Part shown: positions 15,513 through 22,987 of the stretch, in pieces | How positions within the stretch are numbered: position 1 is the first letter of the stretch | Layout of the letters: each line of letters begins with the position of its first letter | Source: Acetomicrobium thermoterrenum DSM 13490 | Lineage (GTDB): Bacteria; Synergistota; Synergistia; Synergistales; Acetomicrobiaceae | Assembly: GCF_900107215.1 (NCBI RefSeq) | Contig: NZ_FNPD01000007.1 | Location: forward strand, 62,001-126,000 | Reading direction: 5' to 3' | Length of the DNA: 64,000 bases | Translations under genes and position numbers: made by a program | Notes under the pieces: generated by a model | What the model was told of the DNA's origin: nothing | Databases searched by the model: none | Seen by the model: only the letters and a program-made list of their open reading frames with translations

Positions 15513-15539
15513 TTGACAAACTATGACATGTCGTATAAC
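15513..15539 (+). promoter_or_regulatory. promoter of the aro leader and operon
   Basis: TTGACA at 15513-15518 is followed by TATAAC at 15534-15539 (15-base spacing, somewhat short); TAACAT at 15536 would give 17. Transcripts would begin about 35-40 bases before the leader peptide start. It is the only good promoter seen before the aro operon. Confidence 0.55.
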
Positions 15540-15585
15540 ATAATTGTCAACCTAAAACTTTGCGAAATGGAGGAGGCGCCAAGTG

Positions 15586-15768
15586 ATGATAGGACAACGT
15601 TTCTTAGCTACGTCAGGGCAATGTGTCAGTGCCATTAGCAACATGTGCGCCTCCATATCCGGCGGTTATTACTTTAGCAACGGCCAGTGGCGTTATTATT
15701 ACGCTTCTGGCCCTTTTTCTTATGGAGACCGACCGCCGGGTGGGAAAGATTACTTTAATTTCAGATAG
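15586..15768 (+). CDS. aromatic-residue-rich leader peptide of the aro operon
   Basis: A 60-codon reading frame with a strong ribosome binding site (GGAGGAGG at 15569-15576, 9 bases before the ATG; a GTG at 15583 is in frame). Its first half is unremarkable. From codon 29 of the GTG frame onward 12 of 33 codons are aromatic: Tyr-Tyr-Phe at 15667-15675, Trp at 15688, three consecutive Tyr at 15694-15702, Phe at 15715, Tyr at 15721 and Tyr-Phe-Asn-Phe at 15751-15762. It ends 22 bases before an intrinsic terminator and 87 bases before the DAHP synthase gene. I read it as a regulatory leader peptide whose translation senses charged aromatic tRNAs. It is longer than classical leaders (14-30 residues), so a small functional protein is the alternative. 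Confidence 0.75.
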   Translation: MIGQRFLATSGQCVSAISNMCASISGGYYFSNGQWRYYYASGPFSYGDRPPGGKDYFNFR

Positions 15769-15832
15769 TAGAGTAACATAATAGCAGATTAAATCCGGGG
15801 TTCGGTCTCAAAGCCGAACCTCGGATTTTTTT
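15659..15832 (+). promoter_or_regulatory. transcription attenuator with alternative RNA pairings
   Basis: Four segments compete. Segment 1 (15659-15666, CCGGCGGT, just before the first Tyr-Tyr-Phe codons) pairs perfectly over 8 bases with part of segment 2 (15732-15739). Segment 2 (15726-15739) also pairs 12 of 14 bases with segment 3 (15795-15808). Segment 3 is the left arm of the terminator closed by segment 4 (15813-15828). A further hairpin GGCCAG/CTGGCC (15682-15687 with 15707-15712, inner GCG/CGC) spans the Trp-Arg-Tyr-Tyr-Tyr codons and is followed by a T run, as expected for a pause site. A ribosome stalled on the aromatic codons would mask segment 1, free segment 2 to hold segment 3, and prevent termination. 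Confidence 0.7.
15791..15832 (+). terminator. intrinsic terminator in the aro leader
   Basis: A 16-pair stem (15791-15806 with 15813-15828, two G-T pairs) and a six-base loop are followed by an unbroken run of seven T (15826-15832). It lies between the leader peptide stop and the DAHP synthase start with no other gene to terminate, so it must act on the operon's own transcript. Confidence 0.85.
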
Positions 15833-15855
15833 ATTTCAAAAGGGAGGGAAAGAAG

Positions 15856-16893
15856 ATGGAAAGAGCCATCGTAAAGACAAAAAGAGGAGAATCGGCAGGA
15901 AGGCTTTTAATGAAATTGGACCAAATAGGGATAAGGGCCAGGATCGCAAAGGAGGAACCAGAGGCAATCCTGTTGGCCGAAGGGGAGATCGACGAGACCA
16001 GCATAAAGACGATGCCGGAAGTAGATCAGGTGACCAAGGTTAAGTTGCCCTTCTCTTTGGCAAGCAGAGAGTGGCATAAAAAAGACAGCGTAGTGAATAT
16101 AGCACCGGGAATCTCCGTTGGCGGAGGAAACGTTCTCATCATTGCCGGCCCCTGTGCTGTAGAGGGAAAGGAGCAGATTGTAAAGACGGCACAATCGGTA
16201 AAAAGATCCGGAGCACTGGCGCTTAGAGGAGGCGCTTACAAGCCGAGGACCAATCCGTACACCTTCCAGGGGCTCGGCATCGAGGGCTTGGCTCTGCTGG
16301 CAGAGGCAAAAAAAATCTCGGGCCTTCCGATCGTCACGGAAATAATGACCCCCGAAGACATCGACTTCATGCTCCCCCACACCGACATCCTGCAGGTCGG
16401 TTCCCGAAACATGCAGAACTTCTCCCTCCTCAAGGCCTTAGGCAAGGTCGACAAACCAGTTCTGCTTAAAAGGGGCATGATGGCCACCATAGATGAATGG
16501 CTACAAGCTGCGGAATACATCATGGCCGGAGGAAACTTCAACGTCATACTCTGCGAGAGGGGAATAAGAAGTTTCGAAAAAAGGACGAGAAACACCCTGG
16601 ATCTAAACGCCGTCCCCCTGGTCAAGAGCTTAAGCCATTTGCCTGTGATCGTAGATCCCAGCCACGGAACGGGAAAGAGCGAGCTCGTTCCCAGCATGAG
16701 CCTGGCTGCCCTTGCCGCGGGAGCGGACGGCCTGATCGTAGAGGTGCACCCGAATCCCGAGGAAGCGGTAAGCGACGGCGACCAATCGCTCGACCTGGAG
16801 GAGTTCGACAAACTGATGAAATCGATCAAAAGACTGCTTTCCGTGATGCCCGAAAAAACTCTGGAGGGATCGAAGTGCTCTGTAGCAGCGTAG
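15856..16893 (+). CDS. aroF: 3-deoxy-7-phosphoheptulonate (DAHP) synthase with N-terminal regulatory domain
   Basis: First committed enzyme of the shikimate pathway: condenses phosphoenolpyruvate and erythrose 4-phosphate. The 345 residues comprise an N-terminal ferredoxin-like domain (about 1-65), as in the Thermotoga-type enzyme where it mediates Tyr/Phe feedback inhibition, and a type I beta barrel with IIAGPCAVE, GGAYKPRT, LLKRGM, ILCERGIR and the metal/substrate motif VDPSHGTGK. A GGGAGGG site lies 7 bases upstream of the ATG. Expression is probably gated by the attenuator just upstream, so both enzyme activity and transcription would respond to aromatic amino acids. Confidence 0.95.
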   Translation: MERAIVKTKRGESAGRLLMKLDQIGIRARIAKEEPEAILLAEGEIDETSIKTMPEVDQVTKVKLPFSLASREWHKKDSVVNIAPGISVGGGNVLIIAGPCAVEGKEQIVKTAQSVKRSGALALRGGAYKPRTNPYTFQGLGIEGLALLAEAKKISGLPIVTEIMTPEDIDFMLPHTDILQVGSRNMQNFSLLKALGKVDKPVLLKRGMMATIDEWLQAAEYIMAGGNFNVILCERGIRSFEKRTRNTLDLNAVPLVKSLSHLPVIVDPSHGTGKSELVPSMSLAALAAGADGLIVEVHPNPEEAVSDGDQSLDLEEFDKLMKSIKRLLSVMPEKTLEGSKCSVAA

Positions 16894-17744
16894 GCATCGT
16901 AGGGCTTGGGCTTATAGGCGGTTCCATGGGGAAAGGATTGCTCGAAAGCCGCTCCGTCGACAGGGTCCTCGGTTGGGACGTGGACGGAAACGTGCTGGAG
17001 CATGCCCTTTCATCAAAAGCCATAACTTCGATCGCTAGCCCGAAGGAAACGGTCGAAGAAACCGAACTTTTGATCATAGCCACCCCGCCAAGCAAAATGA
17101 CCGCCTTAAGCAAAACATTGGCCCCTCTTGCGGGTAAAAATTTAAAGGCCGTTGTGGATACGGCCAGCACCAAATCTGCTCTGTCAAAGGAATTATCCTT
17201 TATCTGGAAGGAAAAATACGTAGGGCTTCATCCCATGGCGGGCAAGGAAAAGGGCGGTATCCAAAACGCAACAGCAGAAATGCTCTATGGCGCCGTTTGC
17301 GCGCTGGTTCCCACCGAAATTTCTGACGGCGAAGCTACGAAAATGGCCAAAGACCTCATCTGCGCCCTAGGCATGCTCCCCGTAATAACAGCTCCGGAAG
17401 AACACGACGAAATTGTGGCCCTTACGAGCCATCTTCCCATGTTTATGGCCATTAGCCTTGCCTTGTCGGCATTCAAGGGAGCTTCTAAAAACCAAAAACT
17501 TCCATACTTCATAGCCGGCGGTTTCAAAGACACCACGAGAGTGGCATCTTGCCCTCCCTGGCTCGTAACCGACGTGTGGGAGACGAATAGAGGCTTTATA
17601 AAAAAGGCGATAAAGGAATTTATAGATATTTTATCCGAGTTGTCAGAGGTAGAGCCGGAGAGTTTGTTCGATTTGGCGACCAAGGCCAAAGAGGCAAGGG
17701 AATCACTGCTAAAGCGTCGAGGTGAGATAAGTGATAGAAATTAG
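16875..17744 (+). CDS. tyrA: prephenate dehydrogenase
   Basis: NAD(P)-dependent oxidative decarboxylation of prephenate to 4-hydroxyphenylpyruvate in tyrosine synthesis; 289 residues. The dinucleotide motif GIVGLGLIGG opens the protein, and the family motifs DTASTKS and GLHPMAGKE (with the substrate-binding His) follow. The GTG at 16875 is chosen because GGAGGG lies 6 bases upstream and the Rossmann motif starts at residue 7; the frame remains open far upstream, but that part is aroF in another frame. It overlaps the end of aroF by 19 bases and aroA by 14. No ACT domain is present. Confidence 0.93.
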   Translation: MLCSSVGIVGLGLIGGSMGKGLLESRSVDRVLGWDVDGNVLEHALSSKAITSIASPKETVEETELLIIATPPSKMTALSKTLAPLAGKNLKAVVDTASTKSALSKELSFIWKEKYVGLHPMAGKEKGGIQNATAEMLYGAVCALVPTEISDGEATKMAKDLICALGMLPVITAPEEHDEIVALTSHLPMFMAISLALSAFKGASKNQKLPYFIAGGFKDTTRVASCPPWLVTDVWETNRGFIKKAIKEFIDILSELSEVEPESLFDLATKAKEARESLLKRRGEISDRN

Positions 17745-19044
17745 ACCGCAAGAAGGAATTGTCGGCGAGATAAAGGTACCGGGCGACAAATCAATATCCC
17801 ATAGAGCTGCCCTGCTGGGGTCTCTTTCGAGGGAAGGCATAGAAGTGGAAAATTTTTCTCCGGGGGAGGACTGCGCGAGCACCCTTTCGTGCCTTAGGAC
17901 GATGGGCTGCGAAGTCAACAAAGATGCCGTCTCAGGCAAGGTATCGGTAAAAGCCCCTGACGGCTTAAAAGAACCGAACGATGTCTTGGACGCAGGAAAC
18001 TCCGGGACCACGGCCAGGCTCATATTGGGATTAATATCGGGAATCCCTAACATATTTGCCGTCATCACGGGCGATGAAAGCCTGAAGAGAAGACCTATGG
18101 GAAGAGTTGCCAAGCCGCTAGTTGCCATGGGCGCAAAGATAGACGGAAGGGAATTCGGAGAGAAGCTTCCCCTGGCGGTTAGAGGAAGAAAGCTTACGGG
18201 CGGCGTTCACACCCTCCAGGTGGCAAGCGCTCAGGTGAAAACGGCAATACTTTTCGCCGGCCTTAGAGCGCAGGGAGCAACTACAGTGATCGAGCCTACC
18301 CTTACGAGGGACCACACAGAGATAATGCTGGAACACCTGGGAACCCCCATCTTCAGAAAGGGCCTCAAGGTCACCGTGTACCCCGTTTCTTCCCTTAAGG
18401 GAGCAAGCTGGACCATACCGGGAGATTTTTCTGCTGCCGCCTTTTGGATAGTGGCTGCAGCCATTACCGAGAAAAGCGAGCTTCAAATCAAAAAGGTCAA
18501 CGTAAATCCTACGAGGACAGGACTTCTAAGGGTGCTTCAAAGAATGGGGCTGGATTACAACATCGAAGACGAGATCTTGAGCGGAGGAGAAAGGATGGCC
18601 ACCATCACGGTGAGGTCGTCGTATCTTAAGGGCACAAAGGTAATGCCCGAAGAGATACCCTCCATGATAGACGAACTTCCCGTACTGGCCGTGGCAGCCA
18701 CCCAGGCAGAAGGGACCACCGAAATAAGGGGCGCCGGCGAGCTCAGGGTAAAGGAAAGCGACAGGATTCACGCCATGACTGAAGGCCTCAAGAGGATGGG
18801 CGCCCAAATAGAAGAGCTTCAAGACGGCTGGATCATAAAGGGCAAAACAAAACTTTCCGGCGCAAGGCTCAAAAGCTTCGGCGATCACCGGATAGCAATG
18901 GCCCTTGCTGTAGCCGGATTGGCCGCAGACGACAGTGTGATACTTGAAGGCGAAAGTTGCGTACACATATCCTACCCCTCCTTTTTCGAGGACTTAAAGG
19001 CCCTGACGACGAAATCCCAACCGAAGGAGAGGGTGTCGTCATGA
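17731..19044 (+). CDS. aroA: 3-phosphoshikimate 1-carboxyvinyltransferase (EPSP synthase)
   Basis: Transfers enolpyruvyl from PEP to shikimate 3-phosphate; 437 residues. Readable landmarks: GDKSISHRAA near residue 17, DAGNSGTTARLILG near 88, RRPMGRVAKPL near 119, the catalytic Asp in IPSMIDELP near 312, RVKESDRI near 342 and GDHRIAMALAVAG near 388. The GTG start overlaps the tyrA stop, and the final TGA shares ATGA with aroC at 19041-19044. The gene context leaves no doubt about its pathway. Confidence 0.96.
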   Translation: MIEIRPQEGIVGEIKVPGDKSISHRAALLGSLSREGIEVENFSPGEDCASTLSCLRTMGCEVNKDAVSGKVSVKAPDGLKEPNDVLDAGNSGTTARLILGLISGIPNIFAVITGDESLKRRPMGRVAKPLVAMGAKIDGREFGEKLPLAVRGRKLTGGVHTLQVASAQVKTAILFAGLRAQGATTVIEPTLTRDHTEIMLEHLGTPIFRKGLKVTVYPVSSLKGASWTIPGDFSAAAFWIVAAAITEKSELQIKKVNVNPTRTGLLRVLQRMGLDYNIEDEILSGGERMATITVRSSYLKGTKVMPEEIPSMIDELPVLAVAATQAEGTTEIRGAGELRVKESDRIHAMTEGLKRMGAQIEELQDGWIIKGKTKLSGARLKSFGDHRIAMALAVAGLAADDSVILEGESCVHISYPSFFEDLKALTTKSQPKERVSS

Positions 19045-20210
19045 GCATTCGCATGCTGTCCAGTGGTGAATCACACGGCAAGGGTTATCTGATCATTGTC
19101 GAAGGTTTGCCGGCGGGCCTTCCCATATCTAAGGACTACATCGAAGAGCAGCTTGCCAGAAGAAGGCGTGGCTACGGCAGAGGAGAACGCATGAAACTCG
19201 AAAGGGACGAGTTCGAGTTTTACAGCGGCGTCAGGGGAAAAGTTACGACGGGAAACCCCATTGGGGTGGTCCTTCGCAACAGCGAATGGGAAAAGTGGAA
19301 GGACGCCATGGACGCCTTCGACCTGAAAGAAGACGAGGCCAAAGAGAGGGAGATAACAAAGCCAAGGCCGGGACACGCCGACGCGTCGGGCATGGCAAAG
19401 TTCGGATTTGAAGAGGCAAGAAACGTATTGGAGCGGACAAGTGCAAGGGCCACCGCTGCCTGGACGATAGCAGGGACATTATGCAGGAGGCTTTTAGAAG
19501 ACCTGGGCATAGCCGTGAGAAGTTCCGTCACATCCGTAGGACCACGATCGATCGGCCTGCCCCGAAGCGAGGAAGAATGGACCAGGGCCTGCTCTTCCGA
19601 CATGGGCCTTCCGAGAGAGGAAGACGAAGAAGAAATTATGGCGATCATAGACGAAGCCAGAAGCTCCGGCGATTCCCTGGGCGGTACTTTCGCAATATCC
19701 GTGAAAAACGTCCCCGCCGGCATAGGATCTTACAGCGAATGGGACAGGCGCCTGGACGGACGCCTTGCTCAGGCCTTGATGGCAATCCCTTCGGCCAAGG
19801 GAGTGGAGATAGGCGGCGGTTTCGGCCTTTCGCAGAGGCCGGGCAGCGAAGTACACGACGAGTTCGTACTCTCCTCAGGCCTTTGGACTCGCCGGACGAA
19901 CAACGCCGGCGGCATAGAAGGTGGCGTAACTAACGGCGAGGAATTGACCCTTCACGTCGCCCTAAAGCCAATCCCTACTTTGAAAAAGCCCCTTCGCACC
20001 TTCGACGTGCGGACTAAAAGGGAAACTTCGGCTCACGTGGAACGGGGGGACGTTTGCGTCGTGCCCGCTGCCTCTGTGGTGGGAGAGGCGATGACGTCGC
20101 TGGTGCTCGCACAGGCCTTATGCGAACAATTCGGTGGCGACAGGATGGAAGATTTGCGATCTCGATTCGAGGAACATACAAAGAGGACGAGGAGGATGTT
20201 TCATGTCTGA
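19041..20210 (+). CDS. aroC: chorismate synthase
   Basis: Converts EPSP to chorismate using reduced FMN; 389 residues. The start is the ATG at 19041 in the ATGA overlap with aroA, with GGAGAGG 9 bases upstream; the frame is open further back, but only through aroA. Family motifs include GESHGKGYLIIVEGLPAG at the N-terminus, the RPGHAD stretch near residue 111, ERTSARATAAWT near 130 and the C-terminal GGIEGG plus RTFDV region. The enzyme needs FMNH2, which suits an anaerobe. Confidence 0.95.
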   Translation: MSIRMLSSGESHGKGYLIIVEGLPAGLPISKDYIEEQLARRRRGYGRGERMKLERDEFEFYSGVRGKVTTGNPIGVVLRNSEWEKWKDAMDAFDLKEDEAKEREITKPRPGHADASGMAKFGFEEARNVLERTSARATAAWTIAGTLCRRLLEDLGIAVRSSVTSVGPRSIGLPRSEEEWTRACSSDMGLPREEDEEEIMAIIDEARSSGDSLGGTFAISVKNVPAGIGSYSEWDRRLDGRLAQALMAIPSAKGVEIGGGFGLSQRPGSEVHDEFVLSSGLWTRRTNNAGGIEGGVTNGEELTLHVALKPIPTLKKPLRTFDVRTKRETSAHVERGDVCVVPAASVVGEAMTSLVLAQALCEQFGGDRMEDLRSRFEEHTKRTRRMFHV

Positions 20211-21861
20211 CATAGCTCATATTACAATGATAAAGGAGTCTCAGGCAAAAGGTAAGGTTGCTTCAAAACCCTTCAGACTCTACCTGGGCGGATTCATGGC
20301 AGCGGGCAAGACCTCTGTCGGAAGAAAGCTTGCGGAGCTGACGGGCTTCCCCTTCGTCGATACCGATGATCTCGTCGAGGCCATGGCCGGGATGAGCGTA
20401 GCCGAGATATTCCAAAAGCATGGTGAACTTTACTTTAGAGCCCTCGAAGCGGAAGCCTTAGAGGAGACTTTCAAGCTTAAAAACGTGATAGTAGGCCTCG
20501 GCGGAGGTGTGCTCGTCAACCCAGAGAATAAGGCCAAGATTTTCGCGAATGGTACTTTGATAATTTTAGACGCTGCCATAGAGACGATCCTAAAACGGGC
20601 ATCCAACGAACCCGGCAAGAGACCTCTACTGAAAGAAGAATCCGTGGCAGAACTCATGAATCGGAGGCGAGAAGCCTACAGCAAGGCTCACATCCGCGTC
20701 CGGACGGACGACCTCTTCGTTGATGAAGTAGCCATGAGCGTAATGGATATGCTCGCCGACCTCTTTCCCGAAATCAAACAACCCAAGAAAGTCGAAACGA
20801 TCCCAGTAAAAACGGCAAATGCAGAATATCCCGTCCTGGTGGGAAGCGACATATTGGCTTCTTTCGAGGACATTATGTCGGAGATCGTCCCAAAAAAATT
20901 CAGCTCTGCCTTTTTGGTAAGCGACCCCCTTACCTTCTCCCTATTTTCCAGGAACTTCAAAAACTTGAAGGATGTACACTTGCTGCCTAGAGGAGAGGCG
21001 GGGAAATCCTTAAGCCAGCTTTCGCTGCTCTACGAAGATCTGGCACGAAACAACATTGATAGGAAGGGGCTAATAGTAGCTTTAGGCGGCGGCTGCGTGG
21101 GAGATACGGCGGGCTTTGCAGCCTCCACTTGGATGCGAGGCATCGACGTCGTCCACATCCCCACCACCCTTATAGCTCAAGCAGACAGCGCCATCGGCGG
21201 AAAGACCGCCGTAAACCTGCCTGAGGGCAAAAACCTCGTTGGCACCTTTCATCAGCCCTGCGCCGTGATCGTCGACGTAAACTGTCTCCTGAGTTTGCCC
21301 GACGAGGAGTTCAGGCAGGGCATGGCCGAGGTCATTAAGTACGGGCTGGGGGAGGACAGGGAATTTTTGAGTTGGCTTTCGGAAAATAGGGGCTCGATCG
21401 CAGAAAGAAATCCCGAAACCTTGCTAAAAATGGTAAAACGTTGTATAGAGCTTAAAGCATCGGTGGTGAAAGAAGACGAAAGAGAGACGACGGGGGCAAG
21501 AAGCCGCCTCAATCTCGGCCACACTATTGCACACGGGCTGGAAGCCCTTCAGGGATACGGCGGCATAAAACACGGAGACGCCGTGGCCGTCGGAATGGTC
21601 GTGGCGACGCACCTTGCCGTCATACTTGAATTGGAAAGCAAAGGCACCCTGGCCGAGCTCCTCGACCTGCTCGAACATTTCGGCCTGCCCACAAAACCTT
21701 GCGCAGATTTCGACAGCATTCTCCCTTACATCATGAGGGACAAAAAGTTCGTCGGTTCAAAGCCCATGTTCGTTCTGCCGAGGAAAGGCTACAAATGCGA
21801 GATGATGGAGGTAGATACAGACCTTTTAAAAAAGGCCTACGAAAGGGCCGGAGGCCGATAA
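20203..21861 (+). CDS. aroKB: bifunctional shikimate kinase / 3-dehydroquinate synthase (AroK-AroB fusion)
   Basis: Fusion of two shikimate-pathway enzymes in 552 residues. Residues about 24-190 are shikimate kinase: Walker A GGFMAAGKTSVG (29-40), Asp pair at 55-56 in DTDD, and the lid/shikimate region with GKRPLL. Residues about 205-552 are dehydroquinate synthase: GGGCVGDTAGFAASTWMRG, PTTLIAQADSAIGGKTAVN, the zinc ligands in KYGL...E and LGHTIAHGLE. The same fusion is known from Thermotoga. GGAGGA lies 6 bases before the ATG, and 8 bases overlap aroC. The steps are not consecutive (AroB is second, AroK fifth); aroD and aroE are not in the window. Confidence 0.94.
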   Translation: MSDIAHITMIKESQAKGKVASKPFRLYLGGFMAAGKTSVGRKLAELTGFPFVDTDDLVEAMAGMSVAEIFQKHGELYFRALEAEALEETFKLKNVIVGLGGGVLVNPENKAKIFANGTLIILDAAIETILKRASNEPGKRPLLKEESVAELMNRRREAYSKAHIRVRTDDLFVDEVAMSVMDMLADLFPEIKQPKKVETIPVKTANAEYPVLVGSDILASFEDIMSEIVPKKFSSAFLVSDPLTFSLFSRNFKNLKDVHLLPRGEAGKSLSQLSLLYEDLARNNIDRKGLIVALGGGCVGDTAGFAASTWMRGIDVVHIPTTLIAQADSAIGGKTAVNLPEGKNLVGTFHQPCAVIVDVNCLLSLPDEEFRQGMAEVIKYGLGEDREFLSWLSENRGSIAERNPETLLKMVKRCIELKASVVKEDERETTGARSRLNLGHTIAHGLEALQGYGGIKHGDAVAVGMVVATHLAVILELESKGTLAELLDLLEHFGLPTKPCADFDSILPYIMRDKKFVGSKPMFVLPRKGYKCEMMEVDTDLLKKAYERAGGR

Positions 21862-21913: not shown

Positions 21914-22987
21914 TCATCTTCTTATTTGAGGGTAAGAGCCCAGAACGCGAAGCCTTTCCACCCTGGAATTCATCGTTGCGAGGGCTTCCTTTACCTTCTT
22001 GTCTTCTGCGTCTCCCTCGAAATCGACGAAAAAGAAATACTCAAAGGGATTTCCCGGAAGGGGGCGAGACTGGATCAGAGTGAGGTTAAGCCCTGCCCTG
22101 TACAGGGGCTCCAAAGCCTGAAATAAAGTGCCCGGCTTGTGGGATACATTAAACAATATGGATGTCTTGTTTCTCTTGGACCTGCCTTCGCAAGCATGTC
22201 CGACAAGCCAGAACCTCGTGGCGTTGTAAGGCCTGTCCTCAATGCCCTCCTCTAAAATGTTAAGACCCTTCAGTTCGGCCGCCAGCTTTCCGCAGATGGC
22301 GGCGCTCTTTTGTTTCGACTTTGCGATGTTAGCCGCATAGCTGGTGCTTGAAGTGGGTATTAGCCTCACTCCCGGCAGGTTTCTGCTAAGCCAGTTTCTG
22401 CACTGCCCGAAGGGCTGGGGATGGGAGTAAACCTCTTCGATGTCGGAAAAAGAATTCTCACAGCTTGCCAACACCAGCCTTATGGGAAGCTGTCCCTCCC
22501 CTATGACAGATAAACTTTGATCGGCAGTGGCAAAGGCATCCAAAGTGGCGTATACGGTGCCCTCCGTGGTGTTTTCCACGGGCACGACGCCCATTTGAGC
22601 TTTTTCCTTCGAGATGGAGCTTAAGACCTGTGCCGGGTCTTCAACGAAGACAAGATCTACTGACCTCCCCAATAGGGCAAAGGCCGCTTCGTGGGAAAAG
22701 GAGCCCTCGGGTCCCATGCAAGCGACGGTGGCAGGCCTTTGAACGGACCTGCAAAAGGATATTACCTCGCCAAAAAGCAGGCGGACGAATTTGGGATCCA
22801 CATCTCTGGCCAAGCCGCAAAGCCTGTCCAGGACCTCAATTTCCCTCAAGGGATCGTAGACAGGAGCGTCACCTTTAACCTCGCCTATCCCTTTGGCCAG
22901 GCTGACCCGCCTTTCGAGAAGACGAAGCAACTCCTCGTCTATGGATTCGATCTCTTTCCTCAAAGCGTGAAGATCCTGATTGGACAT
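21914..22987 (-). CDS. pheA: bifunctional chorismate mutase / prephenate dehydratase (P-protein)
   Basis: Makes phenylpyruvate from chorismate in two steps; 357 residues. Residues 1-85 are an AroQ-type chorismate mutase (LRKEIESIDEELLRLLERRV), about 95-275 the dehydratase with the catalytic TRF motif (NATRFWLVG), and the rest an ACT domain whose KPGTLFQAL and LIQSRP segments correspond to the Phe-binding GALV and ESRP regions, so Phe feedback is expected. It converges with the aro operon, 52 bases apart. Upstream pilM ends 31 bases before its start, so it may be read through from that gene string. The ATG follows GAGGGAGG. Confidence 0.94.
   Translation of the reverse strand: MSNQDLHALRKEIESIDEELLRLLERRVSLAKGIGEVKGDAPVYDPLREIEVLDRLCGLARDVDPKFVRLLFGEVISFCRSVQRPATVACMGPEGSFSHEAAFALLGRSVDLVFVEDPAQVLSSISKEKAQMGVVPVENTTEGTVYATLDAFATADQSLSVIGEGQLPIRLVLASCENSFSDIEEVYSHPQPFGQCRNWLSRNLPGVRLIPTSSTSYAANIAKSKQKSAAICGKLAAELKGLNILEEGIEDRPYNATRFWLVGHACEGRSKRNKTSILFNVSHKPGTLFQALEPLYRAGLNLTLIQSRPLPGNPFEYFFFVDFEGDAEDKKVKEALATMNSRVERLRVLGSYPQIRR

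Follow-up and report, generated by a model that had tools for sequence, protein, structure and literature searches.

A candidate ribosome-mediated transcription attenuator, to which a probability of about 0.92 is assigned, would gate the aroF-tyrA-aroA-aroC-aroKB operon of Acetomicrobium thermoterrenum DSM 13490 through the supply of charged aromatic tRNA. It lies in the window analysed here (the whole 64,000-nucleotide stretch of contig NZ_FNPD01000007.1) and comprises a leader open reading frame (ORF), its aromatic codons and a set of alternative stems, whose covariation, spacing and recurrence are seen in the sequence and in comparison with relatives. The initial annotation had proposed such control for this shikimate-to-tyrosine operon, and the proposal is now strongly supported: the stems covary, the codons are kept, and further copies of the element precede other shikimate operons. 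The features are collected in Table 1, where L-numbers denote compared loci, G-numbers genomes and f-numbers families.

Table 1. Features of the aro attenuator, its operon and related leaders
Feature	Position	Strand	Basis or remark
Putative sigma-70-like promoter, TTGACA-N17-TAACAT	15513..15541	+	consensus matches 10/12
Shine-Dalgarno (SD) of leader ORF, GGAGGAGG	15569..15576	+	sequence
Leader ORF, 60-61 aa	15583..15768	+	GTG 15583 or ATG 15586 to TAG 15766
Segment 1, CCGGCGGT	15659..15666	+	pairs with 15732-15739; Acetomicrobium-specific
Predicted sensing codons Y28 Y29 F30 W35 Y37 Y38 Y39	15667-15702	+	stall modelling; possibly also F44
P hairpin, GGCCAGTGGCG/CGCTTCTGGCC	15682..15712	+	11 pairs; Tyr codons in loop
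Segment 2, antiterminator 5' arm, GGAGACCGACCGCCGG	15724..15739	+	within leader coding region; pairs with 15795-15810
Segment 3, terminator 5' arm	15791..15806	+	with 15807-15810 added, antiterminator 3' arm
Intrinsic terminator, 16-bp stem and T tract	15791..15832	+	23 bases 5' of aroF
aroF, DAHP synthase with N-terminal extension	15856..16893	+	NF006421 460 bits, TIGR01361 395 bits
tyrA, prephenate dehydrogenase	16890..17744	+	family search; start approximate
aroA, EPSP synthase	17731..19044	+	TIGR01356 414 bits
aroC, chorismate synthase	19038..20210	+	TIGR00033 361 bits; start approximate
aroKB, shikimate kinase fused to 3-dehydroquinate synthase	20200..21861	+	TIGR01357 335 bits and shikimate kinase models
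pheA	21914-22987	-	convergent, behind aro operon
Second copies, family f5	L091, L093, L094, L095, L096; L092		before aroA; before aroE (L092)
trp leader	L077 1994-2200 = G000:C11:34993-35199		upstream of trpE

The leader ORF is preceded by a putative promoter whose -35 element and spacing are also kept in L004 and L005; a consensus match by itself is weak evidence for a promoter, because chance yields such sites about once per 800 bases. An inverted repeat (TTGACAA...TTGTCAA, window positions 15513-15549) spans this promoter, and an operator role for it was rejected, as the palindrome is not kept in L005. The leader peptide, MIGQRFLATSGQCVSAISNMCASISGGYYFSNGQWRYYYASGPFSYGDRPPGGKDYFNFR, ends at a double stop (TAG TAG at 15766), and 12 of its last 33 codons encode Tyr, Phe or Trp, as initially annotated. 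Only three of the 970 window ORFs of 15-100 aa contain at least seven aromatic residues in 12 (shuffled windows yield 0.47 per window), and among these three the aroF leader alone has an SD. Most relatives' leaders are also preceded by an SD. ORF and SD would form a short translated unit between promoter and first gene.

Downstream of its start, the leader contains the elements of a termination switch. In Acetomicrobium, segment 1 is CCGGCGGU, directly 5' of the first Tyr codon, and the P hairpin, which covers the Trp-Arg-Tyr-Tyr-Tyr codons, is probably an RNA polymerase pause hairpin. An intrinsic terminator precedes the first structural gene; its stem occupies 15791-15828 and its T tract 15826-15832, three of the seven T being counted in the stem. 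The pairing energies are -20.9 (1:2), -27.1 (2:3) and -26.4 kcal/mol (3:4), the best leader:segment-3 duplex (-27.8) is reached by 0 of 500 shuffles (mean -16.2, sd 2.4), and the folding z of the whole region is -4.9. The initial annotation had described the three pairings, the hairpin over the Trp/Tyr codons, the terminator with seven T before the DAHP synthase gene and the position of segment 2 inside the coding region, and each of these was recovered.

From this arrangement we infer pausing, stalling, termination efficiency and the amino acids sensed. RNA polymerase would transcribe the leader and probably pause past the P hairpin, which would allow the ribosome to catch up. A shortage of charged tRNA for Tyr (also Phe, perhaps Trp) would stall the ribosome at codons 28-39, leaving segment 2 free to pair with the emerging segment 3, so that no terminator would form and the operon would be read. 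With good supply, the ribosome would run through the coding segment 2 and block its pairing, so that 3:4 would form and transcription would stop near 15832. With the ribosome absent or departed, segment 1 may pair with segment 2, also favouring termination. Constrained folding under an equilibrium model, with segment 3 already transcribed and segment 4 still to come, gives 2:3 a probability of about 0.8 with the ribosome at codons 28-39, about half with the ribosome at codon 44 and upstream RNA free, and 0 when the ribosome covers codon 52. After synthesis of segment 4, the equilibrium favours the terminator in every scenario, and the decision must therefore be kinetic, as in known attenuators.

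The predicted position of the stall also limits which codons could act as sensors. The idea that all 12 aromatic codons do so is not upheld, since in the folding model only codons 28-39, perhaps 44, are placed to free segment 2. Codons 46, 56, 57 and 59 are unlikely sensors in the stall model, because a ribosome stalled there covers segment 2 or is beyond it; L005 and L006 do not retain codons 56, 57 and 59 together. All leaders have Tyr in common, and it appears to be the signal with the best support. Sensing of Trp is less certain: its TGG codon contributes to the P hairpin arm, and the aroA leaders do not have it. Leader Trp is commoner where trpA is present in the genome (33/38 vs 6/15, Fisher p 0.001), an association that does not prove a Trp signal, because it follows phylogeny and TGG lies in the P hairpin arm. 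The initial proposal that one leader senses all three aromatic amino acids is not supported in that form, and is doubtful for Trp.

Comparative evidence comes from an alignment (A2) of 26 sequences of the commonest leader design, with the linker excluded, in which the proposed stems covary. The 14 aligned pairs of the terminator are 91.1% paired and nine have changed on both sides (53 double-change cells vs 15.4 in shuffles; score 0.427 vs at most 0.187 in slid controls). The antiterminator, with 17 aligned pairs, is 86.7% paired and eight pairs have changed on both sides (34 cells vs 12.4; score 0.296 vs at most 0.151), and the P hairpin, at 88.8% paired, has changes on both sides in three of its 11 pairs. 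Segment 3 covaries with two partners because antiterminator and terminator share that 3' segment, and this covariation with both marks the two structures as mutually exclusive. With one sequence per family, the antiterminator pairs at -22.9 kcal/mol with its own partner vs -18.9 with swapped partners, and the median p of the swap test is below 1 in 2000 permutations. In divergent leaders, an automatic duplex search gives mixed results for the antiterminator, weak or negative in several (z +0.8 to -2.7).

The distance between the P hairpin and segment 2 is constant except in frameshifted members. In L023 and L026, a 1-base deletion shifts the leader frame; GGAAATCCGTCATCGGGACCTGC is unchanged relative to L015, and 23 antiterminator-arm bases are the same as in L015 despite the other reading frame, which makes the RNA constraint separable from the peptide constraint. 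A conserved peptide with unconserved alternative stems, the outcome against which the initial annotation had set its proposal, is contradicted: terminator and antiterminator covary, and the peptides differ.

The distribution of the leaders was followed across Synergistota. A DAHP synthase search of 188 genomes gave a match better than E 1e-40 in 76, and upstream DNA was oriented and read at 70 aroF loci. Aromatic-rich leaders pass the filter at 55 of these loci, and most of the families tested have such a leader, with a terminator, 5' of aroF. The peptides fall into three or more unrelated designs, and, as had been expected, it is the Tyr/Phe codons rather than the peptides that are kept. A core of the form xxGQWR[YF]xASG or GLWLYxATG is found in 34 of the 55 leaders (about ten families), and others are unrelated in peptide (MMNVSFFAAEYYYFYFFGASRKVILCCQKADR, MLKFSGFDFAGFYYFYCYTRNKSDSCCINSHTEGI, MKQFAAYQFYFGYFYFFSPQS). 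The deep-branching family f11 (L103, L104) has a short leader of YYYFFF type, either MNIWADRIRDFGYYYFFFE or MNIVVSKVGACWYYYFFFE, whose stop codon lies at segment 2; behind it come two mutually exclusive hairpins of textbook form. This is possibly the older design. No leader is found at L106 and L107, where aroF is operon-internal, nor at some other loci, and a few of the 55, L042 and L067 among them, have no strong terminator and could be chance ORFs.

In Thermovirga lienii (L109; CP003097.1 8744-15795), the whole aro operon with its attenuator is carried on the 31.9-kb plasmid pTLIE01, where the leader bears the annotation of a hypothetical protein, Tlie_1900. G131, G132, G147 and G159 have in-frame stops inside their aroF matches, and the trpA matches of G131 are fragmented, which possibly reflects decaying aromatic pathways.

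The partner of segment 2 in the termination state appears to vary among lineages. In Acetomicrobium, the interior-leader segment 1 (15659-15666) is a good match for segment 2, in agreement with the initial annotation; it is genus-specific and was rejected as a general element, with little specific pairing elsewhere (own -11.0 vs swapped -10.1, p 0.04). In most other families, the partner of segment 2 is the SD/start-codon region of the leader itself, for instance GGTGATCGAT:ATCGATCACC in L007 and CCGATGACGG:CCGTTATCGG in L010. With one sequence from each of 11 families, this pairing gives -16.7 vs -13.5 kcal/mol for swapped partners (p at most 0.0035), and the signal is maximal between positions -10 and +20 relative to the start codon. 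The aroA leaders, which differ in sequence, have partial start:segment 2 pairing (four of the six have z between -1.8 and -3.4). Alternative pairing of segment 2 with the leader start outside Acetomicrobium is thus suggested by good, not yet final, evidence. A distinct architecture is tentatively proposed, somewhat short of an even chance, in which the antiterminator arm lies in the leader ORF and pairs alternatively with the ORF's own start, so that pairing after passage of the ribosome would commit termination and block re-initiation, limiting each transcript to one ribosome. Self-limited translation of the Escherichia coli trp leader has been described, and a literature search for a start-codon-sequestering trp leader returned nothing.

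The element also recurs outside aroF. A covariance model (R1) built from the P hairpin and segment 2 recovers the aroF leaders of the main class at E 1e-8 or better and detects second copies (E about 1e-5) before aroA-first operons in G024, G025, G028, G041 and G103 and before an aroE-first operon in G039; we take these genes to be aroA and aroE by recognising their translations rather than from a family search. All second-copy operons have aromatic-rich leaders and terminators. In the aroA leaders, the hairpin and the run of Tyr codons are kept and the GQWR motif is lost (CDQGYYYYPLV). The trp operon of A. thermoterrenum is preceded by a leader of its own, MMILNDLNKKNNNWWWQAR, which contains WWW and is accompanied by a terminator, and which on its sequence would be a plain Trp attenuator; since it is independent, the same genome would control trp through Trp codons and aro through Tyr/Phe/Trp codons.

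The assignment of aroF is further supported by a match to the DAHP synthase structure 1rzm (E 1.4e-93), and an identical aroF is present in A. hydrogeniformans (NZ_ACJX03000001). The kept Tyr/Phe codons correspond to the product of the operon itself, which includes tyrA. pheA was rejected as a second attenuated gene, as another ORF closely precedes it and no leader is seen.

Other readings of the leader have been weighed against attenuation. The near invariance of GQWR[YF]xASG in about ten families could indicate an arrest peptide, in which GQWRYYASG itself stalls the ribosome on free Trp or Tyr in a TnaC-like manner; however, the motif is absent in the other leader classes, and its conservation in the main class can be explained by the P hairpin, because the same codons form the hairpin arms. 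In one family, Gln to Leu and Ser to Thr changes occur together with the stem kept (GGCCUGUGGC/GCCACCGGCC), the aroA leaders retain hairpin and Tyr codons without the motif, and other groups carry YYYFFF or FYYFY instead, all of which makes an arrest peptide very unlikely. That the ORF encodes a small functional protein, followed by an ordinary or constitutive terminator with incidental alternative pairings, would fit the deposition of the homologous T. lienii ORF as a hypothetical protein, but antiterminator DNA is conserved although frame-shifted, the antiterminator covaries, and the peptides differ completely between families, so that this is extremely improbable.

The strong structure and terminator would suit a ligand-, tRNA- or protein-binding leader (riboswitch, T-box or TRAP-like) in which the ORF is secondary. 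Such a leader is hardly to be expected, given that the conserved hairpin falls within a translated reading frame, its loop containing Tyr codons, and that an SD-led leader ORF is present in most loci. The Rfam models (Trp_leader, His_leader, Phe_leader and others) give no match above the gathering threshold, a weak negative, as they also miss the plain trp leader in L077.

Leaders preceding aroF have been described in other phyla. In Corynebacterium glutamicum, the AroR leader (Phe-Tyr-Phe) precedes aroF (PMC4046766; Neshat et al. 2014 as cited in PMC7356990); it is likewise an aromatic leader before a DAHP synthase gene, but it belongs to another phylum and has a three-residue motif, and the two are set apart here by the published description and not by RNA architecture. 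In Acholeplasma, the uORFC-13-1 motif before aroF similarly combines an upstream ORF with Phe codon(s) and a terminator, but it is confined to Acholeplasma, and the accessible text mentions neither a Tyr-rich core nor an antiterminator that covaries (PMC8632094). Stav et al. 2019 (PMC6429828, Fig. 6b) present two comparable uORF candidates with Phe and Tyr before shikimate genes from a study of five genomes including T. lienii (Synergistetes); the main text leaves their source genome unnamed, and the accession listed there is NC_016148.1, whereas the T. lienii aro operon is on pTLIE01. The initial statement that no described example was known for this operon in this phylum thus stands insofar as the literature search, thin on subscription papers, found no such attenuator for Synergistota, and is qualified by the aroF leaders of Corynebacterium and Acholeplasma.

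The candidate attenuator is therefore of a known kind, placed for the common aromatic pathway in a phylum for which no described case was found, and the analysis yields a covariance model and a putative regulon of aroF, aroA and aroE operons in which at least three leader designs keep codons, not peptides. It shares with the Trp, Phe and His leaders of Proteobacteria a product-rich peptide, exclusive antiterminator and terminator, and a hairpin over the control codons. Unlike these, the Synergistota leader is longer (about 46-60 codons), has several amino acids, lacks similarity to the Rfam models, uses the leader start as segment 1 in most families, and has segment 2 in the coding region, where the translating ribosome itself would remove it. 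What appears to be new is this antiterminator arm within the leader coding region, alternatively paired with the leader start, which raises the question in attenuator design of why the arm is placed within coding sequence, as a mirror of the start of its own leader.
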